34,907 nucleotides of DNA from Clostridiales bacterium. Lineage in GTDB: Bacteria > Bacillota > Clostridia > Christensenellales > Aristaeellaceae. Location: NCBI GenBank assembly GCA_015056315.1, contig SVGN01000027.1, forward strand, positions 1 to 34,907, written 5' to 3'. The notes below the pieces were generated by a model, which worked only from the letters and a program-made list of their open reading frames with translations, ran no database searches and was not told the origin of the DNA. Position 1 is the first letter of the stretch; every line of letters begins with the position of its first letter. The translations under genes were made by a program, and so were the position numbers. Below, one piece after another: positions 5,001 to 21,788 of the stretch.

Positions 5001-5909
5001 GAGCTGGATGAGCAGAACTACCGGGAGAACCCCATCGCCAGGAGCCGGAGAGATCTGGCCGTGGTCTACGAGCGCCTTGGTGCCATTGCCGATACCCGCG
5101 GCAAGCTGGAGGAGGCGGTGGAGTGGTACCACAAGTCCATTGCGCTGCACGAGGAAAACCTGAAGGAGAACCCCACCCGGGCCGGTCGCCGTTCGCTGGG
5201 CATCTCCTACGAGGTGCTGGGCATAACGCTGCAAAAGATGGCCGCCGATGCGCCCCCGCGCCTGGAGGAGGCGGCGGCTCTGTACCGCCGGGCCATGGAG
5301 CTTTGCGAGGAAAACCTCCGGGAGAACCCCACCCTTACCCTCTGGCAGGATCTGGCCAACCTGTGCGATCATCTGGGCGATATCGCTATGACCCGGGAGA
5401 CCCCCGAGGGGCTGGCGGAGGCGGAGGAATGGTACCGCAAGCGGCTGGAGATCTGCCAGCGCTGCTACCGGGAGAACCCCACCGCCCGCACCCGCCGTAA
5501 CCTGAGCCTGAGCTACTTCTCTCTGGCGGAGCTCAAGCAGGAGCAGGGCACCCCCGAAGCGTTGCAGGCAGCAAACGAATGGTACCTCCGGGAGCTGGAG
5601 CTGGATGAGGAGAGCCTCCGTCTGGCCCCCGGCTACGAGAGCCGCCGGGATCTGGGCGTTACCATGAGCCGTCTGGCCGCGCTGGCGCAGGTGTCGGATG
5701 CCCCGGACGGTAAGGAGACCGCCCGGCAGTGGTACCTGAAAAAGCTGGAGCTGGATGAGGAGAACCATCGCAACGAGCCCTGCAAACAGACTGCCTCGGA
5801 TATGCGCTTCACCTGTGCGCAGCTGTACCGGCTGGCCAAGGCGCAGGAGACCCCCGAGGGCGAGGAGGAGGCCGCAAAGTGGGCGGTCAAATTCCACTCG
5901 CTGGAGTAA
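2082..5909 (+). CDS. TIR-STAND NTPase with C-terminal ~50-aa helical repeats (putative immune receptor)
   Basis: A 1275-residue multidomain protein. Residues 1 to about 130 form a TIR domain: KIFISYGHND start, BB-loop-like GIPAGEDF (41-48), and S73-R-Y-C-C-D-E79, where E79 is the candidate NAD-cleaving glutamate. A STAND/NACHT-type P-loop NTPase follows: Walker A GEAGTGKT (202-209), Walker B LLIIDGLDEL (D297, D300, E301) and a sensor-like LVTGRPEES. From about residue 665 to the end are TPR-like helical repeats with a mostly exact 50-residue period, consensus EAEEWYRKxLELDEENYRENP then RRxLGITYDRLGDLA. Known TIR-STAND proteins sense a trigger through C-terminal repeats, oligomerise and deplete NAD+. 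Antiphage function is inferred from architecture; no second defence gene is adjacent. The start at 2082 follows AGGAG by 8 nt. Confidence 0.85.
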   Translation: MKIFISYGHNDHTALVDALYDALLRDGHEPWKDDRYEGTSGIPAGEDFTNIIYDAIRESDFVVAFVTAATQRSRYCCDERQYAYNMKGSHFIQLRLDGVEIRLGNAGSYIDMDAVERAGGIDQELFRQKLGALYAAFREPASLLSPSAKFERYLKIRGAMQYDEFIAMPERDDFVGREWLREQCKRWAMDDTIPCRLFVILGEAGTGKTAFVRHLAEDKELVRSVHVCVFDRPKTRNVKDTLKNLAYTLTLTNHSYSDFLRNRNFDSLEEMDYDGLFEFLFVEPLKNEKEKYLLIIDGLDELEETTGLNPLIKVLRQYARTINPNISILVTGRPEESIVSKIRTVHSSATGQSVLLSKDNGREDLNAFIEKNLRELDCYSDALRQKIFEACDGNFEYLTLLFREAAEEGLRLSGETPLPRGLRDRYTQYLDRRMEKNGQEEELTREQHRLLSVLSVAYEPIPCSLLAAVTGFDDYDVNQELKVFGSLVRRIPMGEDDRLISFFSKGFRDYLLSGEYGQYSVSARQGHKAMAAYLMKRFTNEAAFARSPYMDKHGFTHLLVHMRKDREAAQEYLEQMKKADLAKTITRLAAALCSGEREALEAYFDQETPGQDERLVITRLKNIRATHVLNAIIEHYQAEGAIAKACTLQADVLRMEPTPENIRQAAELYHQAREIYQRELEAAPSYDTRFALGLVYERLGNMARALDTTAGWAEAEEWYGKLLALDEENFRENPGYECCRALGITYGRLGDVARVKGTPEGYAEAEVWYRKKLERDEENDRNYPGYESRRALGICYDRLAALAKARETPEGRAEAEQLYLTRLKLDEQNYRETPCYDSRTALSITCDHLGSLAGEKETPEGRAQQEEWCRRCLELDEENHRENPCYDTRHSLSITYDRLGRLARDKGGDAGYEEAGRWYRKSLEMDEQNYRENPCGKSRRNLSVTCCTLGDLAQDRHTAEAQAEAEGWYRRCLELDEQNYRENPIARSRRDLAVVYERLGAIADTRGKLEEAVEWYHKSIALHEENLKENPTRAGRRSLGISYEVLGITLQKMAADAPPRLEEAAALYRRAMELCEENLRENPTLTLWQDLANLCDHLGDIAMTRETPEGLAEAEEWYRKRLEICQRCYRENPTARTRRNLSLSYFSLAELKQEQGTPEALQAANEWYLRELELDEESLRLAPGYESRRDLGVTMSRLAALAQVSDAPDGKETARQWYLKKLELDEENHRNEPCKQTASDMRFTCAQLYRLAKAQETPEGEEEAAKWAVKFHSLE
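4218..5906 (+). repeat. Eleven ~150-bp coding repeats in the TIR-STAND gene
   Basis: Repeat units start at 4218, 4368, 4518, 4668, 4818, 4968, 5106, 5262, 5415, 5565 and 5715, with a 14-codon partial unit from 5865. Eight are exactly 150 bp; the others are 138, 156 and 153 bp. Units share runs of identical DNA such as GAGCAGAACTACCGGGAGA, so the array could expand or contract by recombination. A less similar capping unit precedes the array (from about 4074). Confidence 0.85.
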
Positions 5910-6672: not shown

Positions 6673-8010
6673 ATGGGCAAGAAAAGCAGTTGGATCCTTG
6701 CGGCGGTGCTGGGCCTGTGCCTCTGCGCCGCTCTGGTGTACGGCGCATGGCAGGGCCGGGAGGCACAGCTGTTGGCACGGCAGCTGGAGAGCGGCTATAC
6801 CCGCCGCCTGATGGAGTCTCAGGAGCATTTGCAGGCCATCGGCATCAAGCTGAGCAAATCGCCGCTGGCGGGGGATGTGCGCCTGCAGGTGCAGCTGCTG
6901 GCAGAGGTGAGCCGCCAGGCGGATGGGGTGGTCAGCGGCCTGTCTGCGCTGCCGCTGAGCCATGCCGCCATGAGCGATACCATCCGTTTCTGCAATCAGC
7001 TGTCGGAGTATGCGCTTTTGCAGGCGCTGCGGGTGGCTTCCGGGCAGCCGCTGGAGGAGGAGACCGTGAGCCGTCTTCAGGCGCTGCGGGAGCAGTGCGC
7101 CCTGCTGACGGGGCAGCTGGCAGTGGCGCAGCAGAGCATGCTGGCGGAGGGCATGAAGCTGGCGGCGGAGGGCAATGTGTTCTACGCCCCCGCCCAGGCG
7201 GACAGCCGCCCGCTGGAAATGGTGGGGGATAAGGATCACGGCATGGATTACCCCACCATGGTCTACGACGGTGCCTTCTCCGATGCCACCCACTACGGCC
7301 AGCCCAAGGCGCTGGGGGAGGGGGAGATCGCTCCGGAGGAAGCCCTGACCATCGCCCGGGATTTTGTGGGTGCAGACCGGGTCAGGGCTGCAGCTCACGC
7401 CGGGGAGGCGGCAGGGCTGCTGGCGGGCTACCGGGTCACCTTGACCTTGCAGGATGGTACCGTGCTCAACGCCGAGGTGACCCGGCAGGGCGGCAAAATG
7501 CTGTGGCTGATGCCCGAGCACGCCTCCTTTGCTCAGCGCCTCCCGGTGGAGGAATGCACCGCCCGGGGTGCGGAATTCCTGCAAAGCCGGGGCTTTGGCG
7601 AGACCGAGGCCAACCATGTGCGCGTGTACGATGGCCTGTGCGTGGTCAATTTCGTGCCCGTGCAGGATGGGGTGCTCCTTTACCCGGATCTGGTCAAGCT
7701 GCAGCTGCGCATGGATACCGGCGAGGTGGTGGGGCTGGAGAGCAACAACTACCTGATGAACCATACCCGCCGGGAGGGGCTGGAGCCGGTGTACAGCCGT
7801 ATGCAGGTGCTCCGTCAGGTATCGCCCCTGCTCATGGAGCCGACGGCCCGCCTGTGCCTGATCCCCTATCTGGGCGGGGAAAGGCTGTGCTACGAGGTAT
7901 CCGGCAGCTATGGGGAGGAAGCGTACCGCATCTATGTGGATGCTGCTACCGGCGAGGAACTGGAGATCCTCATGATGGTGCAGGATCCGGAAGGCACTCT
8001 GAGCGTGTAG
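6673..8010 (+). CDS. ypeB: Germination protein YpeB
   Basis: A 445-residue YpeB, the partner that SleB needs for localisation and stability in the spore. One N-terminal transmembrane helix (about residues 6-24) is followed by a helical region rich in Gln/Leu/Arg, then PepSY-type modules in the C-terminal half. The YpeB hallmark DYPTMVYDGAFSD is present near residue 195, and the C-terminus contains a YRIYVDAATGEE PepSY ending. The RBS GGGAGG overlaps the sleB stop codon, so the two genes form one translation unit. The family is unambiguous; the 445-residue length is normal. Confidence 0.92.
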   Translation: MGKKSSWILAAVLGLCLCAALVYGAWQGREAQLLARQLESGYTRRLMESQEHLQAIGIKLSKSPLAGDVRLQVQLLAEVSRQADGVVSGLSALPLSHAAMSDTIRFCNQLSEYALLQALRVASGQPLEEETVSRLQALREQCALLTGQLAVAQQSMLAEGMKLAAEGNVFYAPAQADSRPLEMVGDKDHGMDYPTMVYDGAFSDATHYGQPKALGEGEIAPEEALTIARDFVGADRVRAAAHAGEAAGLLAGYRVTLTLQDGTVLNAEVTRQGGKMLWLMPEHASFAQRLPVEECTARGAEFLQSRGFGETEANHVRVYDGLCVVNFVPVQDGVLLYPDLVKLQLRMDTGEVVGLESNNYLMNHTRREGLEPVYSRMQVLRQVSPLLMEPTARLCLIPYLGGERLCYEVSGSYGEEAYRIYVDAATGEELEILMMVQDPEGTLSV

Positions 8011-8087
8011 CGCAGGCTCTCATGGAAGCAGCTCCCCGTTTGCCGGGAGGGGTGCATGGCAGTACAGGAAAACGGAATAACAGGAAT

Positions 8088-8119
8088 AGCCCCCGCTGCG
8101 GAAAAATGCAGCGGGGGCT
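8088..8119. terminator. Strong hairpin after ypeB
   Basis: AGCCCCCGCTGC (8088-8099) and GCAGCGGGGGCT (8108-8119) are perfect 12-bp arms around an 8-nt loop. No T-run follows; instead the end of the dispersed element (copy A) abuts the hairpin at 8120. It is probably the original ypeB terminator, displaced from its T-run by the insertion. Confidence 0.65.
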
Positions 8120-8335
8120 CAGCTCGTTGAAAAGTGCGGGGCGCAGGGGGATCATCTCCGCAACCTCAGTCGGCGTGCAGCCCACTAACCGTGGTCTGCA
8201 CTTGCTTCGGCCCGACACTGCGGGTCGCTAACGCCTTCGGCGTTGTGCTCACTGGGCACGCGCTTCCCTTCATCTCCCTGCCGGGTGTGGGCGGAGCCCA
8301 CAAACCAACTCACCGTAGTGCTTTCCTGCTCACTC
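8120..8335 (+). mobile_element. Dispersed 280-bp-type element, copy A (truncated)
   Basis: Starting with CAGCTCGTTGAAAA at 8120, about 190 bp match the reverse complement of 11540-11727 with only about ten differences by eye. The match then fades through a diverged segment (AGTGCTTTCCTG) and ends at the hsp20 stop codon. About 70 bp of the far end are missing. It has no coding capacity and contains palindromes such as ACGCC/GGCGT. Confidence 0.75.
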
Positions 8336-8779
8336 GGTGAGGGCTGCGGGGGCTTCGCCGCCGATGGCGATCTGCCGCTTGGCGGGCTTTTCGGCGGGCT
8401 GCTCCTTGGGCAGGGTCAGCTTCAGTACGCCGTCCACATAATCGGCGGCGATGGCGGCGGTGTCGATGCCCTCCAGCTCGAAGCTGCGCTCCATGCGGTG
8501 CTCCATGCGGTGTTCGGCAGCGGCTTCGCCCTCGGGCTTATGCCACTCAGGGGCACGGCGCAGAGCGGAGATGGTGAGCACATTGCCCTCGGTGGTCAGG
8601 GTGATGTTGTCGCGGCCTACGCCGGGCAGGTCGCTTTCCAGCAGGTAGGCGCTGTCGGTCTCGTGGATGCGCACCTGCATGCCGGGGCGGTTGGGGCGGC
8701 GCTGGGGCTCACCGAAGAAACCGCGGAAAAAAGGATCGTTGAACATGGGGGAGAGGGGCTTCATCATGGAATACATCAT
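8330..8779 (-). CDS. Hsp20 / alpha-crystallin small heat-shock protein
   Basis: An ATP-independent holdase chaperone of about 149 residues. The alpha-crystallin domain covers the central part (QVRIHETDSAYLLESDLPGV, then ITLTTEGNVLTISA, then the VDGVLKLTLPK strand ending). The N-terminus is Met/Phe-rich (MFNDPFFRGFF), typical of bacterial class A Hsp20. The longest frame starts at 8788, but AAGGAGG (8789-8795) directly abuts that ATG, so the ATG at 8779 (9 nt away), or the one right after it, is preferred. CtsR-type operators overlap the promoter. The stop codon lies in the remnant of element copy A, so the extreme C-terminus may have been altered. Confidence 0.9.
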   Translation of the reverse strand: MMYSMMKPLSPMFNDPFFRGFFGEPQRRPNRPGMQVRIHETDSAYLLESDLPGVGRDNITLTTEGNVLTISALRRAPEWHKPEGEAAAEHRMEHRMERSFELEGIDTAAIAADYVDGVLKLTLPKEQPAEKPAKRQIAIGGEAPAALTE

Positions 8780-8871
8780 ACTGTACATCCTCCTTCGATA
8801 TGGTTCGGTAAGTAGTGGCGGCTGATATCGTTGCGCCCGGGTCTTGGCTTCTTTTCCCTTGGCGCATGTTT

Positions 8872-8900
8872 ATGATAACACGAAGGTCAAAGATAGTCAA
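8872..8900 (-). promoter_or_regulatory. hsp20 promoter
   Basis: On the minus strand, TTGACT (8900-8895) is the -35 and TATCAT (8877-8872) the -10, with a 17-bp spacer. The -35 lies inside a CtsR box. The predicted leader is about 85 nt. The rest of the 8780-9141 gap is AT-rich sequence (about 8936-9030) with two similar CGTTTTCTTCTGTTTT-like tracts and no gene. Confidence 0.7.
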
Positions 8901-8938
8901 AAGTCAGAAATGCAGAGTGAAAGTCAAAGAAGGTCTAA
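8885..8938. promoter_or_regulatory. Tandem CtsR operators
   Basis: GGTCAAA-GAT-AGTCAAA (8885-8901) matches the CtsR heptanucleotide direct repeat (RGTCAAA-N3-RGTCAAA) exactly. A second, near-consensus site AGTCAAA-GAA-GGTCTAA lies at 8922-8938. The first overlaps the hsp20 -35 hexamer, consistent with repression released on heat or protein stress. The ctsR gene is not in the window. Confidence 0.8.
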
Positions 8939-9054
8939 CAGCATTTCGAAACATTCCGTTTTCTTCTGTTTTCTAATGAAAAATAAAAATATCTCGTTTT
9001 TTCTTCTGTTTTTGTTATACAAGCATGCGTGTGCGCAGCAGCTCTGCCCTTTGC

Positions 9055-11426: not shown

Positions 11427-11447
11427 TGGGCTGCCAAAGGTGGACCG
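11427..11447. repeat. Left flanking duplicate of element copy B
   Basis: TGGGCTGCCAAAGGTGGACCG abuts the left end of the element. The sequence abutting its right end (11728-11748) matches in 18 of 21 positions and is the left part of the working terminator. Confidence 0.7.
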
Positions 11448-11727
11448 CAGACTGTTGATAAACCCATACTTATCGATCAGAGCCGCACATCTTGCACCTT
11501 CGGTGCTCGCTGTGCTTGCAGGAAAACGCTGCGGCGTAAGGGCTGTGGGCTCTGCCCACACCCGGCAGGGAGACGAAGGGAAGCGCGTGCCCAGTGGGCA
11601 CAACGCCGAAGGCGTTAGCGACCCGCAGTCGTCAACCGAAGCAAGTGCAGACCACGGTTAGTGGGCTGCACGCCGACTGAGGTTGCGGAGATGATCCCCC
11701 TGCACCCCGCACTTTTTCAACGAGCTG
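11448..11727 (-). mobile_element. Dispersed 280-bp element, copy B (full)
   Basis: A 280-bp non-coding element bounded by imperfect inverted ends: CAGACTGTTGATAAA on the left, and TTTTTCAACGAGCTG on the right (CAGCTCGTTGAAAAA when inverted). The interior has several palindromes (GCACCTTCGGTGC, GTGCCCAGTGGGCAC, ACGCCGAAGGCGT). It lies inverted relative to copy A at 8120 and shares its left ~110 bp, in direct orientation, with copy C at 21475. It is flanked by a 21-bp duplication. No transposase is present, so it would have to move in trans. Confidence 0.75.
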
Positions 11728-11728
11728 T

Positions 11729-11753
11729 GGGCTGCCAAAGGCAGCCCGTTTTT
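11729..11753 (+). terminator. secDF terminator
   Basis: GGGCTGCC (11729-11736), loop AAA, GGCAGCCC (11740-11747), then GTTTTT. It now lies beyond the inserted element; a damaged copy of its left part lies before the element at 11427. Confidence 0.85.
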
Positions 11754-11779
11754 CCAATCATCAAAGGAGGCGCATCGTT

Positions 11780-12943
11780 GTGACCCGATGGCTCATCCGC
11801 CGCTTTGTTCCCAATGCGGAAAACACCGAAAACCTTGCCGTACGCGGCGCTTACGGCACCCTTGGGGCCACCGTGGGCATCTGCGTGAATGCTCTTTTGG
11901 CAGCCGTCAAGTTTCTGATGGGGCTCCTCAGCGGCTCGCTGGCTGTTATGGCCGATGCGGTCAACAACCTGTCGGATGCGGCAGGCAGCGTGGTGGCGCT
12001 GGTGACCACCCGCATGGCACAGAAGCCGGTGGATGAGGATCATCCCTTCGGGCACGGGCGCATGGAGTACCTTGGCTCGCTGGCGGTGGGCGTGCTCATC
12101 CTGGTCATGGCCATCTCTCTGCTGAAGGATGGCATCGCCGCCATTCTGGCCCCCACCCCGCTGGATGTATCCGTGCTGGTGGGCGTGGTGCTGATCCTCT
12201 CCATCGGTCTCAAGGGCTGGCTGTACTTCTTCTACCGTAAGGTAGGCTCCCTTACCGATAACAGCACCCTGCTGGCAGCCGCCAAAGACAGCCTGAGCGA
12301 TTGCATCGCCACGGCGGCGGTGGTCATCAGCATGGTGCTGCAGGAGATCTTCGGCTGGCTCATCGATGGCTGGATCGGCATCATCGTGGCGCTGATCGTG
12401 CTCAAGGCGGGCGTGGATGTGTGCCGCACCACGGTAGACAGCCTGCTGGGCGGCAAGCCCGACCCGGAGAAGATCCGCCGCATCAAGGAGCTGATGCTCA
12501 GCTACGACGGCATCCTGGGCGTGCACGACCTGGTGCTGCACGACTACGGCCCGGGCCGCTGCCTGGCCTCTGCCCATGCGGAGGTGAGCGTGGAGGGCGA
12601 TCTGCTGGAGATCCACGAGATGATCGATGATGCGGAGCGCCACATCGCCCGGGAGATGAACATGCCCATCTGCATCCATATGGATCCCATCGTAACAGAC
12701 GATGAAGCGGTCAACGAGCTGCGCCGCTCCATCGAGGGCTTCCTGCGCCAGACCGACCCCTGCCTGAGCCTGCACGATTTCCGTGTGGTGCCGGGGCAGG
12801 AGCATACCAATGTGATCTTCGATTGCGTGCTGCCTGCCGGGTACAGGGGCAAGGAGCAGCTACACCGGGCCCTGACCGCCTATGTGACCGGTCTGGACAG
12901 CCGCTACCGGCTCGTAGTGGTCTACGATACCGACTTTACCTGA
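11780..12943 (+). CDS. Cation diffusion facilitator, probable Mn2+ exporter
   Basis: A 387-residue CDF-family metal/proton antiporter. There are about six transmembrane helices in the first 220 residues, then a cytoplasmic ferredoxin-like dimerisation domain (DGILGVHDLVLHDYG) and a further C-terminal extension. Metal-site residues read N62-x3-D66 in TM2 (ADAVNNLSDA) and D170-x3-D174 in TM5 (AKDSLSD). Zinc CDFs usually carry His or Asp in these places, whereas an N/D-D-D pattern is characteristic of manganese exporters of the MntE type. The conserved DEDHPFGHGRMEYL segment follows TM2. The start is GTG at 11780, 9 nt after AAAGGAGG (11763-11770). Metal specificity is inference. Confidence 0.88.
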   Translation: MTRWLIRRFVPNAENTENLAVRGAYGTLGATVGICVNALLAAVKFLMGLLSGSLAVMADAVNNLSDAAGSVVALVTTRMAQKPVDEDHPFGHGRMEYLGSLAVGVLILVMAISLLKDGIAAILAPTPLDVSVLVGVVLILSIGLKGWLYFFYRKVGSLTDNSTLLAAAKDSLSDCIATAAVVISMVLQEIFGWLIDGWIGIIVALIVLKAGVDVCRTTVDSLLGGKPDPEKIRRIKELMLSYDGILGVHDLVLHDYGPGRCLASAHAEVSVEGDLLEIHEMIDDAERHIAREMNMPICIHMDPIVTDDEAVNELRRSIEGFLRQTDPCLSLHDFRVVPGQEHTNVIFDCVLPAGYRGKEQLHRALTAYVTGLDSRYRLVVVYDTDFT

Positions 12944-13014
12944 TATTCCCTGCAATCCATACCGGCTTCGGTTCGTTATCATCAGCGTAAGACTGTTATC
13001 CGGAGGGATGCTGT

Positions 13015-13881
13015 ATGAAACGAACCACCCGTGCCGCCAAGCGGCTCACCGCCCTTCTTTGCGCCGCCCTTATGCTGCTTGCTGCCCTGCCTGCCCGGGC
13101 CGGAGAGGCGGAAACGCTGAACATCCTGCTCATCGGAGAGGATGCCGCCCGGGAAGGCCGCAACGGTCGCAGCGATACCATGATGCTGGTGCAGATCGCC
13201 CCGGAGAGCGGCGCTGTAAAGCTGGTCTCCTTTCTGCGGGATCTGTATGTGCCCATCGAGGGCCACGGCACCCAGCGGCTGAACGCCGCCTATGTGCACG
13301 GCGGCGAAGCGCTGCTGCGCCAAACGCTGACCGGGCTTTTCGGCGTGCGCATCGACCGCACCGCCAAGGTGGATTTTGCCGCCATGGCCGCCCTGATCGA
13401 CCGGCTGGGCGGCGTGGAGCTGGAGATCTCCGAGACCGAGCGCCGGGCCCTCAACGAGATCCTGGAGGCCTACTGCCGGGAGCGGGCGTTGCCCTATGCC
13501 CCGGTGGAGACCGCCGGTACCGTGCGTTTGACCGGCCCCCAGGCCCTCAGCTACAGCCGTGTGCGCAGCCCGGACAGCGATTTTGTCCGCGTCAGCCGCC
13601 AGCAGCAGGTGCTTACCGCACTGCTCCGGCAGGCCATGGCGCTGGAGCCTGTGGAGCTGATCGGGCTGGCAGTGATGTGCATGAACAGCATCGAGACCGA
13701 TCTGGGGCTCAGCGATCTGCTCACCCTGCTGCCCCTGATGGATAGGGACATCGACCTTGCCGCCGCCCATGTGCCCTTCGAGGGCACCTGCCGCGACCTG
13801 CAGGTGGATGGCATGTGGGTGCTGGAGAGCGATATCGCCGAAAACAAAAAACGGCTGCACGCCTTTCTGGCGGAGCCGTAA
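13015..13881 (+). CDS. LCP (LytR-CpsA-Psr) family protein
   Basis: A 288-residue LCP protein. Family members transfer undecaprenyl-linked glycopolymers to peptidoglycan on the outer face of the membrane. The N-terminus (residues 8-29) is a hydrophobic signal with a possible A-R-A cleavage site, so it may be released or anchored. LCP residues are visible: GEDAAREGRNGRSDTMML (R52, D54), SFLRDLYVPI (R75, D76), QRLNAAYVHGG, and SYSRVRSPDSDFVRVSRQQ. The start follows GGAGG (13002-13006) by 8 nt. A perfect hairpin (13884-13901) without a T-run follows the stop, and dus starts 44 nt later, so co-transcription is possible. Confidence 0.9.
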   Translation: MKRTTRAAKRLTALLCAALMLLAALPARAGEAETLNILLIGEDAAREGRNGRSDTMMLVQIAPESGAVKLVSFLRDLYVPIEGHGTQRLNAAYVHGGEALLRQTLTGLFGVRIDRTAKVDFAAMAALIDRLGGVELEISETERRALNEILEAYCRERALPYAPVETAGTVRLTGPQALSYSRVRSPDSDFVRVSRQQQVLTALLRQAMALEPVELIGLAVMCMNSIETDLGLSDLLTLLPLMDRDIDLAAAHVPFEGTCRDLQVDGMWVLESDIAENKKRLHAFLAEP

Positions 13882-13925
13882 GCGCTGCGCGGGCGCGCAG
13901 CAAGCCACACAAAAGGAGCTGCCGT

Positions 13926-14855
13926 ATGCAATACAGCTTTGCGCCCATGGAGGGCATCACCAACCATCTCTACCGCAACGCCCACAAGGATTGCTTCGCC
14001 CCGGCGGACAGGTACTTCATCCCCTTTGTATCGGCCAAGGGCAAGGGCTTTACCGGCAGGGAGAAGCGGGATATCGACCCGGAGAACAACCGGGGCCTCC
14101 ATGTGGTGCCCCAGGTGATGAGCAATGATGCGGAATCCTTTATGTGGGTGGCAGGCGAGCTGATCGCCCGGGGGTATGAGGAGATCAACCTGAATCTGGG
14201 CTGCCCTTCCTCCACGGTGGTCTCCAAGGGCAAAGGTTCCGGCTTTCTGGGCAGGCCGGAGGCGCTGGAGAGCTTCCTTGCGCAGATCTTCGACCGCTGC
14301 CCGGTGCGCATCTCCATCAAGACCCGTCTGGGCATGAAGGATCCGGCAGAGTTCGAGCGCATCCTTCAGATCTACGAACGCTTTCCCCTTTCGGAGCTGA
14401 TCGTGCACCCCCGCATCCGGGAGGATCTCTACCGGGAGCCGGTGCGCCCGGAATGGTTCGAATTTGCCCGGCAGCACAGCCGCTTTACCCTGTGCTACAA
14501 CGGCGATCTTTATACCGCGGAGGATGTACGCGCCTTCGAAGCCGCTCACCCGGAGGTGGAGCGGGTCATGATGGGCCGGGGCTTTCTGATGCGCCCGGGC
14601 ATGGTGGGACAGCTCAGAGGGCAGGAGCCCACCGTGGAGCAGCTGCGCCGCTTTCATGAGCGGATGTACGGGGCGTACCGGCAGCTTCTGGGCACCGAAG
14701 CCTTTGTGATGATGAAGATGAAGGAGCTGTGGGCCTATCTGGGCGTTGGCTATGAGATCGGCGACAAGCTGCTGAAAAAGATCCGCAAATGCGATCGCTA
14801 TCGGGATTATGATGCCGCCATGGCACTGGTGTTTGCGGAGCTGGAAAGCCGGTAG
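13926..14855 (+). CDS. tRNA-dihydrouridine synthase
   Basis: A 309-residue flavoenzyme that reduces uridines in tRNA to dihydrouridine. The TIM barrel starts with SFAPMEGITNHLYR (FMN phosphate region). The catalytic cysteine is C93 in NLNLGCPSSTVVSKGKGSGF, with K132 in SIKTRLGM and FMN-binding ELIVHPR, YNGDLY and MMGRGFL later on. The helical C-terminal RNA-binding domain is present. The start at 13926 follows AAAAGGAG (13911-13918) by 7 nt. I cannot say which Dus subgroup this is; DusC-like spacing is possible. Confidence 0.92.
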   Translation: MQYSFAPMEGITNHLYRNAHKDCFAPADRYFIPFVSAKGKGFTGREKRDIDPENNRGLHVVPQVMSNDAESFMWVAGELIARGYEEINLNLGCPSSTVVSKGKGSGFLGRPEALESFLAQIFDRCPVRISIKTRLGMKDPAEFERILQIYERFPLSELIVHPRIREDLYREPVRPEWFEFARQHSRFTLCYNGDLYTAEDVRAFEAAHPEVERVMMGRGFLMRPGMVGQLRGQEPTVEQLRRFHERMYGAYRQLLGTEAFVMMKMKELWAYLGVGYEIGDKLLKKIRKCDRYRDYDAAMALVFAELESR

Positions 14856-14869
14856 CCCGAAGCCTATTT

Positions 14870-14919
14870 CCTCAGGCTCCCTCTTCAGAGGGAGCTGTCA
14901 CCCGAAGGGTGACTGAGGG
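14870..14919. repeat. Palindromic intergenic repeat (two hairpins)
   Basis: GCTCCCTC/GAGGGAGC (14876-14883 and 14888-14895) and GTCACCC/GGGTGAC (14897-14903 and 14907-14913) stand side by side between outer CCTCAG and CTGAGG. Double hairpins of this sort are common between genes in gut Clostridia. It separates the convergent dus and methyltransferase genes. Confidence 0.7.
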
Positions 14920-14953
14920 TGCCGCCCCGGCTCCCCTCCACCCGCTCTCATCA

Positions 14954-15523
14954 CTACCGCCCCAGATACCGGCGCACCCGGCCCATATACGCCCTGTATT
15001 CCTCACCGAACACCCCCAGCAGGTACTCCTCCTCCTGAAGGATCTGCAAATGCAGCATCACCGCCGCAAACAGGCAGCACAGCACCACCCACACAGTGGG
15101 AAACAGCAGGCAGGCGGACAGGTACAGCAGATCGAACCCCACAAAGGCCGGGTTGCGGCTCAGGCGGTAGATGCCATCCGTCACAAGGGCGGTCTTTTCC
15201 TCCGGTATGCCCACCCGCCAGCTGGTCTTCATACTGATGGTGGCGGCAGCAAAGAAGATAATGCCCGCCAGCCCGGCAGCGATGCCTGCGGCGATCAGCG
15301 CCGGGGAGGTCTGAGGCCCGGCGAACAGGATGCTGCCCGCACTGCTCACCAGCGCCAGCACCGTGGCCAGACTCATGATGCGCTCGACCCGGAGCACATG
15401 GGCGGGCTTGTTGCCCCGGCCCATCTGGTTGGTGCGGATCTGTTGCCTGTGCTGGAGATAGAGTTTGGCCAGATAGAAGCCGTAGAAAACGATCTGGATG
15501 AGGATAGCTGCTGCGCGGAGCAT
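14954..15523 (-). CDS. Isoprenylcysteine/phospholipid methyltransferase-like membrane protein
   Basis: A 189-residue integral membrane protein with about five hydrophobic segments. The C-terminal half carries the ICMT/PEMT-type S-adenosylmethionine region: GIYRLSRNPAFVGFDLLYLS, then the ending EEEYLLGVFGEEYRAYMGRVRRYL, in which the ExxYxxYxxRxxR(Y/F) pattern is diagnostic. Bacterial members methylate unknown small or lipid substrates, so no substrate is assigned. The chosen ATG at 15523 follows AAAGG by 10 nt; an upstream in-frame ATG at 15562 lacks an RBS. It is transcribed alone, convergent with dus. Confidence 0.82.
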   Translation of the reverse strand: MLRAAAILIQIVFYGFYLAKLYLQHRQQIRTNQMGRGNKPAHVLRVERIMSLATVLALVSSAGSILFAGPQTSPALIAAGIAAGLAGIIFFAAATISMKTSWRVGIPEEKTALVTDGIYRLSRNPAFVGFDLLYLSACLLFPTVWVVLCCLFAAVMLHLQILQEEEYLLGVFGEEYRAYMGRVRRYLGR

Positions 15524-15581
15524 GGAGACACGACCTTTCCTATTTGATGAACATGTGAACACTTATTCATATGACAGAAGC

Positions 15582-15610
15582 AGTAAACCACAAAACAGAA
15601 CGGCTGTCAA
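15582..15610 (-). promoter_or_regulatory. Promoter of the methyltransferase-like gene
   Basis: Minus strand: perfect TTGACA (15610-15605), 17-bp spacer, TTTACT (15587-15582; 4 of 6). The leader contains two direct TGTTCA copies in TGTTCACATGTTCA (about 15551-15564), which could be an operator. Confidence 0.55.
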
Positions 15611-15622
15611 GCCCTGTTGATG

Positions 15623-15667
15623 AAAAAAGCCCCTGTGCAGGAGGATGACCCTCCATACACAGGGGCT
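15623..15667 (-). terminator. Terminator of the SPOUT methyltransferase gene
   Basis: Read on the minus strand, AGCCCCTGTG (15667-15658) and CACAGGGGCT (15637-15628) pair, with an inner GGAGG/CCTCC stem, and are followed by a T-run (15628-15623). It is oriented to end transcripts coming from 16582-15788. Confidence 0.85.
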
Positions 15668-15787
15668 GTATGCCGTCTGTCTCAGCCCTTCCGGGGAGCG
15701 GCTTCGGGTGAGAACAGCTCATCTGTTCGGGAGCCGCAAAAAAGGGGGGGCAGCCGGTTGGCAACGCTGCTGCACGGCTGCTGCCCC

Positions 15788-16582
15788 TCACGCCCGGCTT
15801 TTCCCGAACAGCTCCCAGAAGGCCACTGCTCCGGCGGCGGCCACGTTCAGAGAGTTCACTTCGTTATACATGGGTATGATCACCGCATGGTCGCAGCCAT
15901 CGATGGTCTCCTGCCGCAGACCGTCGCCCTCTGCGCCCAGGAACAGGGCCAGCCGGGCCGCCTGCTTCAAAAGCGGGTCGTGCACGGGCAGCGCATTCTC
16001 CCGCAGCGCCAGCGCAGCGGTGGTGAAACCCGCCGCCTTCAGCGCAGCCAGCGGCTGCGGGCACACCGCCCACGGGATGCGCAGCACGGCCCCCATGCTC
16101 ACCCGGGCAGCCCGCCTTTGCAGGGGATCGCAGCAATCCGGCGTCAGCAGGATGCCATCCGCTCCCAAAGCGGCGGCAGAGCGCATCAGCGCCCCTATGT
16201 TGGTGCCGTCCACCACGTTTTCCAGCACGGCGATGCGCCGGGCATCCGTCAGCACGGCTTCGGCGGTCAGCGGTGCCGGGCGCTCCATCGCACACAGGAT
16301 GCCCCGGCTCAGCCTGAAGCCGGTCAGGCTTTCCAACAGGGCATCATCGCCGGTGTATACCGGCACGCCGCAGCGCTCCACCAGCCCTTTGCCCTTGCCG
16401 GTGATGTGCTGCCGCTCCATCAGCAGCGAAAGGGGACGGCACCCGGCCTCCAGCCCGGCGGCGATCACGTTCTCGCTCTCGGCAATGAACAGGTTGCTGC
16501 CCAACAGCTGCCTGCCGGTCAGCTGCCGGTAGGGGGCGAGGGCGGGGTCCTCCGGAGTCAGGATCTCGTAAAGCTCTGGCAT
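15788..16582 (-). CDS. SPOUT (TrmH/SpoU) family RNA 2'-O-methyltransferase
   Basis: A 264-residue RNA ribose methyltransferase with the trefoil-knot SPOUT fold. An N-terminal substrate-binding region (residues 1 to about 110) precedes the three SpoU motifs: motif 1 LENVVDGTNIGALMRSAAA (N122, N128, R134), motif 2 LFLGAEGDGL (214-222) and motif 3 IIPMYNEVNSLNVAAA (235-250). The start at 16582 follows AAAGGA by 8 nt; a slightly longer start at 16591 abuts the RBS and is unlikely. The target RNA cannot be told from sequence. It is divergent from the 2H gene across a 130-bp gap. Confidence 0.9.
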   Translation of the reverse strand: MPELYEILTPEDPALAPYRQLTGRQLLGSNLFIAESENVIAAGLEAGCRPLSLLMERQHITGKGKGLVERCGVPVYTGDDALLESLTGFRLSRGILCAMERPAPLTAEAVLTDARRIAVLENVVDGTNIGALMRSAAALGADGILLTPDCCDPLQRRAARVSMGAVLRIPWAVCPQPLAALKAAGFTTAALALRENALPVHDPLLKQAARLALFLGAEGDGLRQETIDGCDHAVIIPMYNEVNSLNVAAAGAVAFWELFGKSRA

Positions 16583-16654
16583 GCGGCTCATCCTTTGCGG
16601 TTTGGTTCCCCTCCAGTGTACCACAGATCGCCCCGGTTGGGAAACGCCCCGGGT

Positions 16655-16684
16655 TTGACTTCCGGCCTCGGTTCGTGCTATCCT
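16655..16684 (+). promoter_or_regulatory. Possible promoter of the 2H gene
   Basis: TTGACT (16655-16660), 18-bp spacer, TATCCT (16679-16684; 4 of 6). A moderate match, correctly placed about 30 bp before the gene. Confidence 0.45.
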
Positions 16685-16715
16685 GCCCAAAAGCAACGAA
16701 ACGAGGCGAACCCAT

Positions 16716-17225
16716 ATGGCAGAATCCTTCCTCACCATCATGGCAGAATATTCGGAAAACGACCAGCAGAAGATCTCCCTCTGGCGCGATGCGCTCATCG
16801 ATGCGGGCTTCACCGGCAACCAGACCCCCGGGCTCCGGCACCACATCAGCCTGGCTGCCTGGCCGTTGGAAAAAGAGCGGGAGGCCATCGAGATGGTCCT
16901 GCGAGCAGGCGAACGTTTCGCCCCGGTGGATGTGGCCATCCGTCACATCGGTGTGCTGCCCGGCGGCAAGGTGCTGGCGGCGGCTCCGGATATGAGCCCT
17001 GCGCTTACCGCCCTGCAGCGGGCATGCGGCAACAGCATCGTGCACGGCTACCCCTGGCTGCCCCACACCACCCTGCTGATGGAGGAGACCGAGACCCTCG
17101 CTGCCGCCCTGCCCACGCTGATGAAGCACTTTACGCCCATTCCCGCAAGGATCGACCGGCTGCGCCTGTGCGCTTTCTGGCCGACGAGGGAGATCGCCTG
17201 CGTGGCGCTGAGGGGGGAGGAGTGA
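16716..17225 (+). CDS. 2H phosphoesterase / 2'-5' RNA ligase-like protein
   Basis: A 169-residue protein with the two-histidine signature of the 2H phosphoesterase superfamily: H43-I-S45 (HHISLA) in the first half and H117-T-T119 (LPHTTLL) in the second, about 75 residues apart. Such proteins act on 2'-5' or cyclic phosphodiester bonds in RNA or nucleotides. The substrate here is unknown. The RBS is weak (GAGG about 10 nt before the ATG). No terminator of its own is seen before glnS other than the hairpin that overlaps the glnS promoter. Confidence 0.8.
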   Translation: MAESFLTIMAEYSENDQQKISLWRDALIDAGFTGNQTPGLRHHISLAAWPLEKEREAIEMVLRAGERFAPVDVAIRHIGVLPGGKVLAAAPDMSPALTALQRACGNSIVHGYPWLPHTTLLMEETETLAAALPTLMKHFTPIPARIDRLRLCAFWPTREIACVALRGEE

Positions 17226-17271
17226 GGAGCAGGCGATGGCACCTGCCTTTGTATTTCACTGCGATCACATC

Positions 17272-17300
17272 TTGCCAAATGCCGTTACCCGTTATATAAT
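17272..17300 (+). promoter_or_regulatory. glnS promoter
   Basis: TTGCCA (17272-17277), 17-bp spacer, perfect TATAAT (17295-17300). Start of transcription is expected near 17307, giving a leader of about 45 nt. Confidence 0.85.
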
Positions 17301-17318
17301 TAGCGGTAACGGTTTTTT
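17282..17318 (+). terminator. Inverted repeat and T-run overlapping the glnS promoter
   Basis: CCGTTACC (17282-17289) and GGTAACGG (17305-17312) are perfect 8-bp arms that bracket the glnS -10 box and are followed by six T (17313-17318). It can act as the intrinsic terminator of the upstream 2H gene or as a symmetric operator of glnS. A third GCCGTTA copy lies at 17322-17328. Confidence 0.65.
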
Positions 17319-17352
17319 ACTGCCGTTAATCTGTAGGAAAGAGGGCACTGCA

Positions 17353-19071
17353 ATGGAGAACCCCGCAACGAAAAGCAATTTCATCTGGGAAGCCGTAGAA
17401 GAGGATTTACGGAGCGGGCGCTGCCAAAGCGTGCATACCCGTTTCCCCCCCGAACCCAACGGTTACCTGCACATTGGCCACTGCAAGGCGCTGGTGGCAG
17501 ACTTTCTGACCGCCGAGCGCTACGGCGGCGTTACCAACCTGCGCTTTGACGATACCAACCCCGCCAAGGAAGAGACCGAGTATGTGGACGGCATCATGGA
17601 TGACATCCGCTGGCTGGGCTTCGATTGGAAGGGCGGCCTGTTCTTTGCCAGCGAGTACTACCAGAAGTGCTACGACATCGCTGTGGATTGGATCAAGCGC
17701 GACCTGGCCTATGTGGACGAGCTTACCCAGGAGCAGATGCGCGAATACCGCGGCACCCTCACCGAGCCGGGCAAGAACAGCCCCTACCGGGACCGCCCCA
17801 TGGAGGAGAACCTGCGCCTGTTCGAAGAAATGAAGGCAGGCAAGCACCCCGAGGGCAGCATGATCCTTCGTATGAAGATCGATATGGCCTCCCCCAACAT
17901 CAACATGCGCGACCCCGCCATGTACCGCATCCTCTACAAGGAGCATCACCGCACCGGCAAGGAATGGTGCATCTACCCCATGTACGACTTTGCCCACCCC
18001 ATCGGCGATGCGCTGGAGGGCATCACCCACAGCCTGTGCTCTCTGGAGTATGAGGATCACCGCCCCCTGTACGACTGGGTGGTGGAAAAGTCCGCTGCCA
18101 TGCTGCCGGGCCGCCCCCGCCAGATCGAGTTCAGCCGCCTGAACCTGACCCGCACCGTTATGAGCAAGCGCTACCTGCGCGCGCTGGTGGAGGGCGGCTT
18201 CGTTACCGGCTGGGACGATCCCCGCATGCCCACCCTGTGCGCCATGCGCCGCCGCGGCTACACCCCCGAAGCCATCCGCGATTTCATCGACCGCATCGGC
18301 CTTGCCAAGGCGGACAGCACCGTGGATATGGCCCTGCTGGAAAGCTGCGTCCGCGACGACCTGGGCGACAAGGTGCCCCGCGCCATGGCTGTGGTTCGCC
18401 CCCTGAAGGTGATCCTGACCAACTGGCCCGAGGATAAGATCGACGAGCTGGAGATCGAGAACCATCCCAAGCACCCGGAAATGGGCAGCCACAAGGTGGT
18501 CATGACCCGCGAGATCTACGTGGAGCAGGAAGACTTTATGGAGGTTCCCCCCAAGAAGTACTTCCGCCTGTTCCCCGGCAACGAGGTGCGCCTGATGGGT
18601 GCCTACATCATCAAGTGCGAGGGCTGCGAGAAGGATGAGAACGGCAACGTGACCGCCGTGCTCTGCACCGTGGATATGGACAGCCGCAACGGCAGCGAGG
18701 GTGCCAACCGCAAGGTGAAGGGCACCCTGCACTGGGTGAGCGCCACCGAGAACGTGCCCGTTGAGGTGCGCATGTTCGAGCCCATCCTGCTGGATGAGGA
18801 CGAGACCAACGGCATCGAGGGCGAAAAGCTGGAGGAGCTGCGCAAGCAGCTGCCCCTGAAGGACGACTTCCTCACCCGCCTCAACTTCAACAGTCTGGAG
18901 ACCTGCAACGGCTATGCCGAGAAGGCTCTGGCCACCGTGGAGGCCGGCTCCACCTACCAGTTCCCCCGTGTGGGCTACTTCTGCAAGGATACCGACTCCA
19001 CCGCCGGGAAGTATGTCTTCAACCGCGTTGTGGGCCTGAAGGATACCTTCGCCAAGCAGATCAAGAAGTAA
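17353..19071 (+). CDS. glnS: Glutaminyl-tRNA synthetase
   Basis: A 572-residue class I aminoacyl-tRNA synthetase that charges tRNA-Gln with glutamine. The catalytic Rossmann fold has PPEPNGYLHIGH (HIGH at 40-43) and the KMSKS-loop variant V269-M-S-K-R273. The insertion and acceptor-binding domain (YRDRPMEENLRLFEEMKAG) and the two C-terminal anticodon-binding beta barrels (FPGNEVRLMGAYI, KGTLHWVSA, FNRVVGLKDTF) are intact. Length is near that of the E. coli enzyme. The start at 17353 follows GAGGG by 7 nt. Many Firmicutes lack GlnRS and use Glu-tRNA-Gln amidation instead, so this gene marks the lineage that has it. Confidence 0.96.
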   Translation: MENPATKSNFIWEAVEEDLRSGRCQSVHTRFPPEPNGYLHIGHCKALVADFLTAERYGGVTNLRFDDTNPAKEETEYVDGIMDDIRWLGFDWKGGLFFASEYYQKCYDIAVDWIKRDLAYVDELTQEQMREYRGTLTEPGKNSPYRDRPMEENLRLFEEMKAGKHPEGSMILRMKIDMASPNINMRDPAMYRILYKEHHRTGKEWCIYPMYDFAHPIGDALEGITHSLCSLEYEDHRPLYDWVVEKSAAMLPGRPRQIEFSRLNLTRTVMSKRYLRALVEGGFVTGWDDPRMPTLCAMRRRGYTPEAIRDFIDRIGLAKADSTVDMALLESCVRDDLGDKVPRAMAVVRPLKVILTNWPEDKIDELEIENHPKHPEMGSHKVVMTREIYVEQEDFMEVPPKKYFRLFPGNEVRLMGAYIIKCEGCEKDENGNVTAVLCTVDMDSRNGSEGANRKVKGTLHWVSATENVPVEVRMFEPILLDEDETNGIEGEKLEELRKQLPLKDDFLTRLNFNSLETCNGYAEKALATVEAGSTYQFPRVGYFCKDTDSTAGKYVFNRVVGLKDTFAKQIKK

Positions 19072-19079
19072 ACAGCCTG

Positions 19080-19113
19080 AGCCGCCTTCGCAAGCCGGAG
19101 GCGGCTGCTTTTT
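19080..19113 (+). terminator. glnS terminator
   Basis: AGCCGCCT (19080-19087) pairs with AGGCGGCT (19099-19106), followed by GC and TTTTT. Confidence 0.85.
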
Positions 19114-19139
19114 CATCATCGTTCGGGAGGATGCTCGCC

Positions 19140-19616
19140 ATGTCTGTAACCTATCGTTTCGCCACCCGGGAGGATACCGGGCTGATCCTGCAATTCATCC
19201 GGGAGCTGGCAGAGTACGAAAAAATGCTGGATCAGGTCGTTGCCACCGAAGCGCTGCTGGCAGAGGAGCTGTTCGAAAAGCGCCATGCCGAGGTGCTCCT
19301 TGCCCTGGCGGATGGGCAGGCGGTGGGCTTTGCGCTGTTCTTTCACAATTTCTCCACCTTTTTGGGCCGCTCCGGCATCTATCTGGAGGATCTGTATGTG
19401 CGCCCGGAGCACCGGGGCAAGGGGTTGGGCAAGGGGCTTCTGCGCAGGCTGGCGCAGCTTGCGCTGGAGCGGGGCTGCGGCAGGCTGGAATGGGCCTGCC
19501 TCAACTGGAACAGGCCCAGCATCGATTTTTACCTCTCCACCGGCGCACAGCCCATGGAGGATTGGACGGTGTACCGGCTCACCGGCGAGAGCCTTGCCCG
19601 TATGGCAAAGGAATAA
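19140..19616 (+). CDS. GNAT family N-acetyltransferase
   Basis: A 158-residue acetyl-CoA-dependent acetyltransferase. Motif A is clear: IYLEDLYVRPEHRGKGLGKGLL, with R92-G-K-G-L-G97 holding the CoA pyrophosphate. The ending NRPSIDFYLSTGAQPMEDWTVYRL is the usual motif B. The overall pattern, with an N-terminal ELAEYEKM, resembles diamine or thialysine acetyltransferases of the SAT type, but substrate is not proven. GGGAGG (19125-19130) abuts an ATG at 19131; the ATG at 19140, nine nt further, is the better start. It lies between terminators as a single-gene unit, with no promoter recognised. Confidence 0.88.
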   Translation: MSVTYRFATREDTGLILQFIRELAEYEKMLDQVVATEALLAEELFEKRHAEVLLALADGQAVGFALFFHNFSTFLGRSGIYLEDLYVRPEHRGKGLGKGLLRRLAQLALERGCGRLEWACLNWNRPSIDFYLSTGAQPMEDWTVYRLTGESLARMAKE

Positions 19617-19641
19617 CAGCTGCATAACAAAGGCTGCGAAG

Positions 19642-19678
19642 GGCCCGCTGCACAGCTTTGGCTGCTCGGCGGGCCTTT
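19642..19678 (+). terminator. Terminator after the GNAT gene
   Basis: GGCCCGC (19642-19648) pairs with GCGGGCC (19669-19675), followed by TTT. Confidence 0.65.
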
Positions 19679-19762
19679 GTGCTGCCCTGCACCCATCGAT
19701 CTTCCCCGCATAGGATGAAGTGCGGGCAGAATCGCTGCCTGCATTTGAACGAAGGGAAGGAA

Positions 19763-20803
19763 ATGACGATGCGAAATAGAGATTCCGTCACCTGTGCTGC
19801 CCAGCCTGCCTGCGGCTGCGGTACGGTGCAGACCGCCTCGGTTTTCCGGGCGGTGGATAGCTGCGCCCCTTGCAGCAACAACGGCACGGACTGGAACCAT
19901 TGGGATCGTAATATGCACCGGAGCGGCTGTTGCGGGAGCCGGAGTGGCGGTGATGGCTGCAATGCCTGGGGTACTGCTGGTGTGAATGAGTGCTGCAGCA
20001 ATGGCTGCGCCACTGCTGCCGATCACAGCTGGGGCAATAGCTGTGATGCCTGTGGTACTGCCGCAGCCATCAACTGCAACCCCTGCGCCGCTGCCGCCAA
20101 CACCGGCTGCGCCGCCTGTACCCGCTGCGGCAACAGCCCCTGCACCTGCCACAGCAACGGCTGCACTGCTGCTGCCAACAGCTGCAATGCTTGCGCTGTT
20201 ACCGCCGACTGCAACCCCTGCGCTGCTGTCGCCAACACCGGCTGCGCTGCCTGTACCCGCTGCGGCAACAGCCCCTGCACCTGCCACAGCAACGGCTGCA
20301 CTGCCGCTGCCAACAGCTGCAACGCTTGCGCTTCTGCCGCCAACTGCAACCCCTGCGCCGCTGCCGCCAACACCGGCTGCGCCGCCTGCACCCGCTGCGG
20401 CAACAACCCCTGCACCTGTGGCCTGACCCCTGCCATGGTCTATGAGACTCCTCACGGCCTCAACGCCCTCCATGGCTTTGAGGAGGCCATCCGCAAGGGC
20501 ACGCTGTTCGGTGAGCTGTATATGCCCATGAATGGCGAATGCGCCGACAACTGCGGTGCCCGGCTCTGCGATGGGCAGGCCGAGGCCTTTGCCGCCTGGG
20601 AGCTGCGCCTCTACCTGAACACCCACCCCTGGGATCGGCACGCTCTGGAGCTGTTCCGGCAATGCTGCCGCCGGGGCGATCTGCCCAACTACGCCTGTGC
20701 CTTCGCCTCCGATGACGGCTGCGCGGACCGCTGGCGTTGGACGGATGCTCCCTGGCCCTGGGAGCTTGGCAGCACCTGCGAAAACAACTGCGGCTGCCAC
20801 TGA
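19763..20803 (+). CDS. Cys-rich repeat - CotJA - CotJB fusion spore-coat protein
   Basis: A 346-residue protein read as one frame. Residues 1 to about 219 are extremely rich in Cys, Ala, Asn and Gly, ending in repeats of exactly 45 residues (CNPCAAxANTGCAACTRCGN core) at 105-149, 150-194 and 195-219 (partial). Residues about 230-256 resemble CotJA (FEEAIRKGTLFGELYMPM). Residues about 272-335 resemble CotJB (AFAAWELRLYLNTHPWDRHALELF...RWRWTDAPWPWE). CotJA and CotJB are normally separate small coat proteins encoded before cotJC, which follows here after 21 nt. The start may be 19763 or 19769; both have AAGGG/GGAAGG at workable distance. CATAGGAT (19709-19716) could be a sigma-E-like -10 but is weak. 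The cysteines suggest disulfide cross-linking or metal binding. Confidence 0.82.
   Translation: MTMRNRDSVTCAAQPACGCGTVQTASVFRAVDSCAPCSNNGTDWNHWDRNMHRSGCCGSRSGGDGCNAWGTAGVNECCSNGCATAADHSWGNSCDACGTAAAINCNPCAAAANTGCAACTRCGNSPCTCHSNGCTAAANSCNACAVTADCNPCAAVANTGCAACTRCGNSPCTCHSNGCTAAANSCNACASAANCNPCAAAANTGCAACTRCGNNPCTCGLTPAMVYETPHGLNALHGFEEAIRKGTLFGELYMPMNGECADNCGARLCDGQAEAFAAWELRLYLNTHPWDRHALELFRQCCRRGDLPNYACAFASDDGCADRWRWTDAPWPWELGSTCENNCGCH
20075..20419 (+). repeat. 135-bp coding tandem repeat in the coat fusion gene
   Basis: Units start at 20075, 20210 and 20345 (the last is partial, 75 bp). The DNA is nearly identical between units, indicating recent duplication. Codons are dominated by TGC, GCN and AAC. 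Confidence 0.9.
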
Positions 20804-20824
20804 CGGAGAGGGGGAGGAAAGACC

Positions 20825-21421
20825 ATGTTTGTTTATGAAAAAGAGTTGCAGTATCCCGTACGCATCACCCGGCCCGACCCACGCATGGCGGCGGCCATCA
20901 TCAGCCAGTACGGCGGCCCGGACGGCGAGCTGGGCGCATCGCTCAGGTACCTGAGCCAGCGGTTCTCCATGCCTGATGCCCGCATCAAGGGTCTCCTGAC
21001 CGATGTGGGCGTGGAGGAGCTCGGGCATCTGGAGATCGTGGGAGCCATGATCTACCAGCTTACCAAGGGCATGTGCGAAAACGACCTGAAGCAGGGCGGC
21101 TTCGATGCCTATTTCACCGACCACACGCTGGGGGTCTACCCCCAGTCGGCGGCCGGGCAGCCCTTCACGGCGGCCTATATCGGCGTAAAGGGCGACCCCG
21201 TCACCGATCTGCACGAGGATCTGGCCGCCGAGCAGAAGGCGCGCACCACCTACGAGAACCTGCTCCATTTGGCGGATGACCCGGACGTGAAGGATGTGCT
21301 CCGCTACCTGCGCCAGCGGGAGATCGTGCACTACCAGCGTTTTGCCGAAGCCCTGGGCATGGTGCGGGAAAAGCTGGATGAGCGCAATTTCTACGCCTTC
21401 AACCCCGCCCTGGGCAGTTGA
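20825..21421 (+). CDS. cotJC: CotJC, manganese-catalase-like spore coat protein
   Basis: A 198-residue ferritin-like four-helix protein of the CotJC/manganese catalase family, found in the spore coat of Bacillus and Clostridia. Likely di-manganese ligands are E35 (GELGASLRYLSQRF), E65 and H68 (VEELGHLE), E136 (LAAEQKAR) and E166/H169 (REIVHYQRF). It is shorter than stand-alone manganese catalases, which is normal for CotJC. GGGAGG lies 7 nt before the ATG, and only 21 nt separate it from the CotJA-CotJB fusion, so the two form one operon. A strong hairpin follows the stop. Confidence 0.92.
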   Translation: MFVYEKELQYPVRITRPDPRMAAAIISQYGGPDGELGASLRYLSQRFSMPDARIKGLLTDVGVEELGHLEIVGAMIYQLTKGMCENDLKQGGFDAYFTDHTLGVYPQSAAGQPFTAAYIGVKGDPVTDLHEDLAAEQKARTTYENLLHLADDPDVKDVLRYLRQREIVHYQRFAEALGMVREKLDERNFYAFNPALGS

Positions 21422-21444
21422 TGCACAGTATACAAAAGAATAAT

Positions 21445-21474
21445 GGGGGAGCGGGCCACACGGCCCGCTCCCCT
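21445..21474 (+). terminator. cotJ terminator hairpin, left copy (no T-run)
   Basis: GGGGAGCGGGCC and GGCCCGCTCCCC are perfect 12-bp arms around ACAC. The hairpin is followed not by a T-run but directly by element copy C at 21475. A near-identical 30-nt copy with a T-run lies beyond the element at 21756. Confidence 0.75.
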
Positions 21475-21754
21475 CAGACTGTTGAAAAACCCATACATAC
21501 CAACACGAGCCGCACATCTTGCACCTTCGGTGCTCGCTGTGCTCACAAGAAAGCGCTGCGGCGCAAGGTTTGTGGGCTCTGTTCCGCAACCTCAATCGTC
21601 GTGTAGCCTACTACCGTAGCCTACACTCGTTTCGGTTGACGACTGCGGGTCGTTTTGCGCTTCGCGCAAGTGCCCACTGGGCACACACTTCCCTCCGTCT
21701 CCACACCCGGCAGGAAACTGAGTTTCCTGCACCTTCCCCTTTTTTGACAACCTG
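21475..21754 (+). mobile_element. Dispersed 280-bp element, copy C (full)
   Basis: Non-coding, 280 bp, with left end CAGACTGTTGAAAAACCC as in copy B and a right end that reads CAGGTTGTCAAAAAA when inverted. The left ~110 bp align with copy B in the same orientation. The next ~150 bp align with the opposite strand of copy B, so the core is inverted between copies. It is flanked by 30-nt terminator duplicates (28 of 30 identical). Confidence 0.75.
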
Positions 21755-21755
21755 C

Positions 21756-21788
21756 GGGGGAGAGGGCCACACGGCTCGCTCCCCTTTT
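21756..21788 (+). terminator. cotJ terminator, right copy with T-run
   Basis: GGGGAGAGGGCC/GGCTCGCTCCCC stem (one mismatch, one G-U) followed by TTTT. It differs from 21445-21474 at two positions. The remaining 21789-21965 sequence holds no gene; CTTGT/ACAAG arms lie just before the next promoter. Confidence 0.75.

Follow-up and report, generated by a model that had tools for sequence, protein, structure and literature searches.

DDE transposons normally make short target duplications, the length of which is dictated by the geometry of the enzyme. Members of the IS1182 family carry transposases with DUF772 and DDE domains, as does the transposase linked to the element described here, and direct repeats of 0-60 bp are given for the family. 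The closest described systems are IS1272 and TnSha1 of staphylococci. According to the accounts of target choice in PMC5678879 and PMC4923244, they share with our element the IS1182-family transposase and the use of hairpin or terminator targets that have no sequence in common. However, IS1272 inserts at hairpins and removes them, replacing the stem-loop without any duplication, whereas the element here duplicates the whole stem-loop. PMC5678879 also draws the possibility that attack at the 5' feet of a stem-loop would duplicate the stem-loop whole, and it is this predicted branch that our copies match. The IS1182 family is heterogeneous, since ISCaa15 is listed with 4-bp repeats in PMC3196728 and two of the more distant copies considered below (L299 and L300) show no hairpin duplicate.

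Other systems resemble the element in part. IS1549 and IS1634 also make long and variable direct repeats, of 8-514 bp, for which the description in PMC2266710 proposes no mechanism, and they belong to a different IS family. ERIC, RUP, Correia and similar bacterial MITEs are short and gene-less, with inverted ends and many intergenic copies, as is the element; unlike it, they are not credited with terminator-hairpin duplication in the sections of the MITE review PMC10969869 that describe them. In the literature searched, with its partial journal coverage, an IS1182-type MITE with a hairpin-length target duplication was not found as a documented class. We suggest, with a probability of roughly 85%, that the element is a MITE of IS1182-type transposons that inserts at hairpins and duplicates the whole hairpin, which would be captured as a cruciform or as a single strand.

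The element and its copies

The window, i.e., the whole stretch of 34,907 nucleotides that was analysed, contains one truncated copy (A) and two 280-bp copies (B and C) of the element, with the following features.

8088..8119, no strand assigned: perfect terminator-like hairpin adjoining truncated copy A; 32 nt, 13-bp stem, -28.6 kcal/mol as RNA
8120..8302, minus strand: copy A, truncated, right end and inner part only; 95% identity to B positions 97-280
11427..11447, plus strand: decayed upstream copy of the terminator hairpin of secF, lacking the T-run; 21 nt, 3 mismatches against 11728-11748
11448..11727, plus strand: copy B, 280 bp; ends CAGACTGTTGATAAA ... TTTTTCAACGAGCTG
11569..11689, minus strand: nested module of about 118 bp in B; corresponds to C positions 109-228 read on the other strand; the 162-bp form lacks about 118 bp
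11728..11748, plus strand: downstream hairpin copy at B; T-run at 11749-11753
21445..21474, plus strand: upstream hairpin copy after the manganese-catalase/CotJC-like gene, without T-run; 30 nt, 2 mismatches against 21756-21785
21475..21754, plus strand: copy C, 280 bp; ends CAGACTGTTGAAAAA ... TTTTTTGACAACCTG
21582..21702, plus strand: nested module of about 118 bp in C; orientation opposite to that in B
21756..21785, plus strand: downstream hairpin copy at C, then TTT

The sequence-only reading had described B and C as 280-bp copies with a common start (CAGACTGTTGA), each between imperfect duplicates of a hairpin, and had placed a strong hairpin beside copy A. Coordinates, sequence, duplicates and the hairpin at A were all confirmed. 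A pattern search of positions 7501-9000 gave no second copy of the hairpin at A.

The element exists in two sizes, 162 and 280 bp, of which 162 bp is the common form, and it is high-copy in the host genome. It is short, has no transposase gene, and its termini of about 15 bp form inverted repeats (CAGACTGTYGAAAAA / CAGGTTGTCAAAAAA); the ends read CAGACTGTYGAAAAACCC and, on the opposite strand, CAGGTTGTCAAAAAAGG. Copy B has at least 59 matches in the host genome (the best 40 of 98 candidates were scored), and copy C as query likewise gave 59. With the 162-bp form as query, 11 of 17 genomes of the genus, the host included, match at E <= 0.001; the matches in G001, G012, G014 and G015 are weak, with best E values of about 1e-8 to 1e-9. 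Among the named relatives (L052-L090) there was no convincing match.

The difference between the two sizes is the module of about 118 bp, which the sequence-only reading does not mention and whose insertion point as well as orientation differ between B and C. The module is also found alone, without the element, elsewhere in the host genome, as a structured sequence at L017, L019, L021, L038, L039, L043 and L045, some of them at contig ends. The module appears to be a separate repeat family in its own right, and copies consisting of the core only or the module only were left out of the element counts. In an alignment of 16 copies from six genomes, 10 of the 41 pairs predicted in the interior of the element are changed on both sides, and in the hairpin near the right end four pairs have been exchanged as a block; this pattern of sequence change suggests that pairing inside the element is kept. 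At locus L009 the target hairpin resembles the internal hairpin of the element, so that the insertion there may be into a related copy of the element. Elsewhere in the window, positions 2082-5909 encode a 1275-aa protein that has 150-bp internal repeats and gives TIR, NACHT-like and TPR matches; it may serve in defence or signalling. Positions 19658-20803 encode a CotJB-domain protein with a Cys-rich stretch built of 135-bp (45-aa) repeats, and a 98-bp tandem repeat pair, 79% alike, lies at 279-474.

Duplicated hairpins at the insertion sites

The hairpin duplication is strongly supported. Ungapped abutting direct repeats flank 19 of the 24 host copies that have two defined ends, and in a scripted set drawn from five genomes a repeat is present at 53 of 59 two-ended copies (14 repeats in G000, 17 in G004, 16 in G005 and 3 each in G008 and G009). 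This target-site duplication is a further mark of a MITE, and the earlier description, in which a non-autonomous element makes target duplications of unusual length, is supported. As a control for chance, an abutting repeat of equal score occurred at 1 of 3000 random 162-bp spacings in the window. The scripted set uses a stricter end pattern and partly overlaps the 24 host copies. Its input was the two window copies, 43 host loci and 60 loci of G000, G001, G004, G005, G006, G008, G009 and G011, taking 20 of the 50 listed matches of G004 and 21 of 40 for G005; many loci without two ends were dropped (degenerate ends, contig ends, module only). The sequence-only reading had named copies without flanking duplicates as evidence against it. 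Three such copies, L018, L035 and L036, have no flanking duplicate among the 24 two-ended host copies, so that hairpin duplication is not universal; five copies in all have no ungapped repeat, and at the remaining two, L028 and L034, inspection by eye shows a hairpin duplicate that is gapped or partial. The six copies of the scripted set that have no repeat include L028, L188 and L227, where a hairpin is seen by eye on both sides.

The repeats are 18-47 bp long, with a median of 28 (53 repeats), and the axis of the hairpin lies at their centre. Whole-site folding with 20-nt flanks gave no information because the flanks mispaired, and a register test was used instead. Counted inward from the ends of the repeat, contiguous pairs number 4.89 on average in the true register (shift 0) and 0.36-1.11 once the register is moved by 1-6 bases in either direction (n=53). 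By position, pairing across the 53 sites amounts to 94% one base inside the ends, 64% at the ends and 53% just outside. Folded alone, the repeats leave 0-1 unpaired base at the 5' end in 50 of 53 cases and at the 3' end in 51 of 53, and 46 of the 53 are more stable than all 200 of their mononucleotide shuffles. Thus, to within one or two bases at the foot, the duplicated unit is a stem-loop. Since the bases just outside the repeat are also able to pair at about half of the 53 sites (0.53), the cut lies near the end of the stem and is not always exact. The flanking repeats are whole hairpins of very different lengths, and it is therefore the hairpin, not a fixed stagger, that determines the duplication.

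The first reading observed that only the far copy keeps the T-run, and this is confirmed here; the reason is that the stem-loop is duplicated and its T-run is not. A T-run or A-run lies beside 40 of the 47 sites in G000, G004 and G005: a T-run on the right only at 11, an A-run on the left only at 12, both at 17 and neither at 7, with no bias in the direction of the element relative to the T-run (11 vs 12 of 47). The hairpins used are in most cases transcription terminators. Two transposase-bearing copies (L248 and L252) duplicate AT-rich palindromes, and the target is better named a hairpin or palindrome than a terminator. In G004 three loci (L183, L186 and L193) are arrays with 5, 4 and 3 occurrences of one hairpin, respectively, spaced about 189-202 bp apart and separated by elements. 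These arrays fit a duplicated hairpin acting as a fresh target, as expected, and unequal crossing-over would also produce them.

Orthologous sites in relatives agree with the expectation, raised on the first reading, that sites lacking the insertion carry a single terminator. The gene that follows secF is the same in 5 of 16 relatives. In all five, a direct repeat of 14 or more is absent from the secF site, and four have exactly one perfect hairpin with a stem of at least 7. In the fifth, G005, no hairpin reaches this threshold, and an imperfect one is seen by eye. The site of copy C, after the catalase gene, has one hairpin in G009, and at L015 and L024 the corresponding sites of relatives also have just one, as judged by eye only; for the L031 site there was no clear orthologue across the insertion. 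Since the hairpins of the relatives differ in sequence, these are orthologous single-hairpin sites and not identical empty sites. In G001 the orthologue of the L024 site (L277) holds another small element, whose ends are similar (CAGATCGTTGACAAATC / CAGCTTGTCGAAAAAG) and which lies between two copies of a 27-bp hairpin repeat.

IS1182-type transposons with related ends

A search with PF13751 gave matches in 6 of the 17 genomes of the genus, and none in G004 and G005, both of which are element-rich. The host match (L116, 1406-2898) is a 1493-bp IS1182-type copy with ends CAGACTGTCAAAGAAG / CAGTCTGTCAAAAAAG, the sole IS1182 found in the host assembly, which is 80% complete. Its transposase gene is broken into two frames; the NCBIfam IS1182 model, with a cut-off of 270, gives the two pieces scores of 222.8 and 91.5, and Pfam PF05598 and PF13751 are above their cut-offs. 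The CAGACTGTCGAAAAAC end of the element agrees with each end of L116 at 13 of 16 positions, and agreement rises to 14 of 16 with the ends of L248 and L252, transposons from two other families of the order. B-type ends match those of L116 at 10-11 of 16 positions only.

Both ends and flanks could be placed for 11 distinct IS1182-type copies, of which 6 lie between duplicates of one hairpin or palindrome, 2 between different hairpins and 3 have no such flanks. The duplicated unit is 20 bp at L124, 31 bp at L125, 22 bp at L129 and about 26 bp at L301, a degenerate copy on a Rhizobium plasmid. The AT-rich palindromes at L248 (about 19 bp, one indel) and L252 (22-24 bp, mismatched) are not terminator-like. 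The transposase genes of L129, L252 and L301 are broken, and L124 encodes an intact transposase of 449 aa. L116 and the Thermocaproicibacter plasmid copy L294 (829-2354, with L302) have a different perfect hairpin at each end, and recombination between two copies would do this. Among the more distant copies L297, L299 and L300, no duplicated hairpin was seen in flanks judged by eye, and the flanks of L297 are themselves an inverted repeat. No end pair could be placed at most of the transposase loci L111-L152 and L242-L257, and none was found at the plasmid loci L295, L296 and L298. A flank search based on CAG...CTG ends missed IS1182 copies that a repeat-first search found. The inverted ends together with these IS1182 copies point to IS1182-type transposition.

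Mechanism, alternatives and significance

Since the duplication length tracks the hairpin length, the target was probably attacked while physically folded, perhaps as a cruciform. The complete hairpin copy on each side of the element suggests that the transposase recognises the folded shape of the DNA, not its sequence. In the mechanism we propose, the transposase would capture a hairpin that is extruded as a cruciform or exposed as a single strand. The two 3' ends of the element would then be joined to the two 5' feet of the hairpin, which are distant in linear sequence and close together at the base of the fold. Repair synthesis would copy the entire hairpin to both sides, the T-run being lost from the upstream copy and kept by the downstream one. 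With an upstream hairpin that has no T-run and a downstream hairpin that has one, termination is probably kept after the element.

The same family might instead attack the hairpin as single-stranded DNA, for example where a replication fork exposes the lagging strand or inside a transcription bubble. The repeats form strong hairpins whichever state is attacked, and the absence of a direction bias relative to the T-run (11 vs 12 of 47) neither favours nor excludes it; in DDE transposition, however, two-ended strand transfer with duplication is simpler on a double strand, and we regard the single-strand route as unlikely. Far less probable is that recombination between repeats, or replication slippage between them, produced the flanking hairpins with the element as a passive spacer. 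Tandem arrays do exist, with five hairpins about 190 bp apart at L183, four at L186 and three at L193, but exact element ends adjoin many unrelated hairpins, the secF site is unduplicated in relatives and transposase-bearing copies have the same flanks. This alternative, the second proposal of the sequence-only reading (a repeat that recombines through hairpins), is not needed.

Replacement of the hairpin as by IS1272 would be in keeping with the shared transposase family and the hairpin targets reported in PMC5678879 and PMC4923244. Such replacement leaves no target duplication, however, whereas whole hairpins lie on both sides in 53 of 59 copies here; L116 and L294 aside, it is already contradicted for the copies with duplicates, and we give it the least weight of all. 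A REP-like or 3'-UTR RNA element, kept near terminators for its function and not moved by an IS1182 transposase, is also very improbable. The internal hairpin pairing seems to be kept, with the two-sided changes given above, and copies with degenerate ends occur, yet the window has no Rfam match at the gathering score and the marks of a transposon, inverted ends and target duplications, are present. Group IIC introns and IS200/IS605-type elements were considered and dropped, since neither is known to make such a target duplication.

The IS1182-type MITE thus remains our preferred reading. Beyond it, we lean towards the broader view that a subgroup of IS1182-type transposases targets folded DNA, with both strand transfers at the feet of the hairpin and the duplication length (18-47 bp) read off the hairpin. 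The second hairpin would then be a second target that can seed arrays, and the gene would keep a working terminator, a built-in safe harbour. A duplication equal in length to the target hairpin is direct and testable evidence for structure-guided integration, and through it the whole-stem-loop branch, hypothetical in the IS1272 model, becomes a class represented by many cases. Insertion at terminators with termination kept would represent a safe-harbour strategy, and the duplications would provide a natural readout of hairpin extrusion in living cells.
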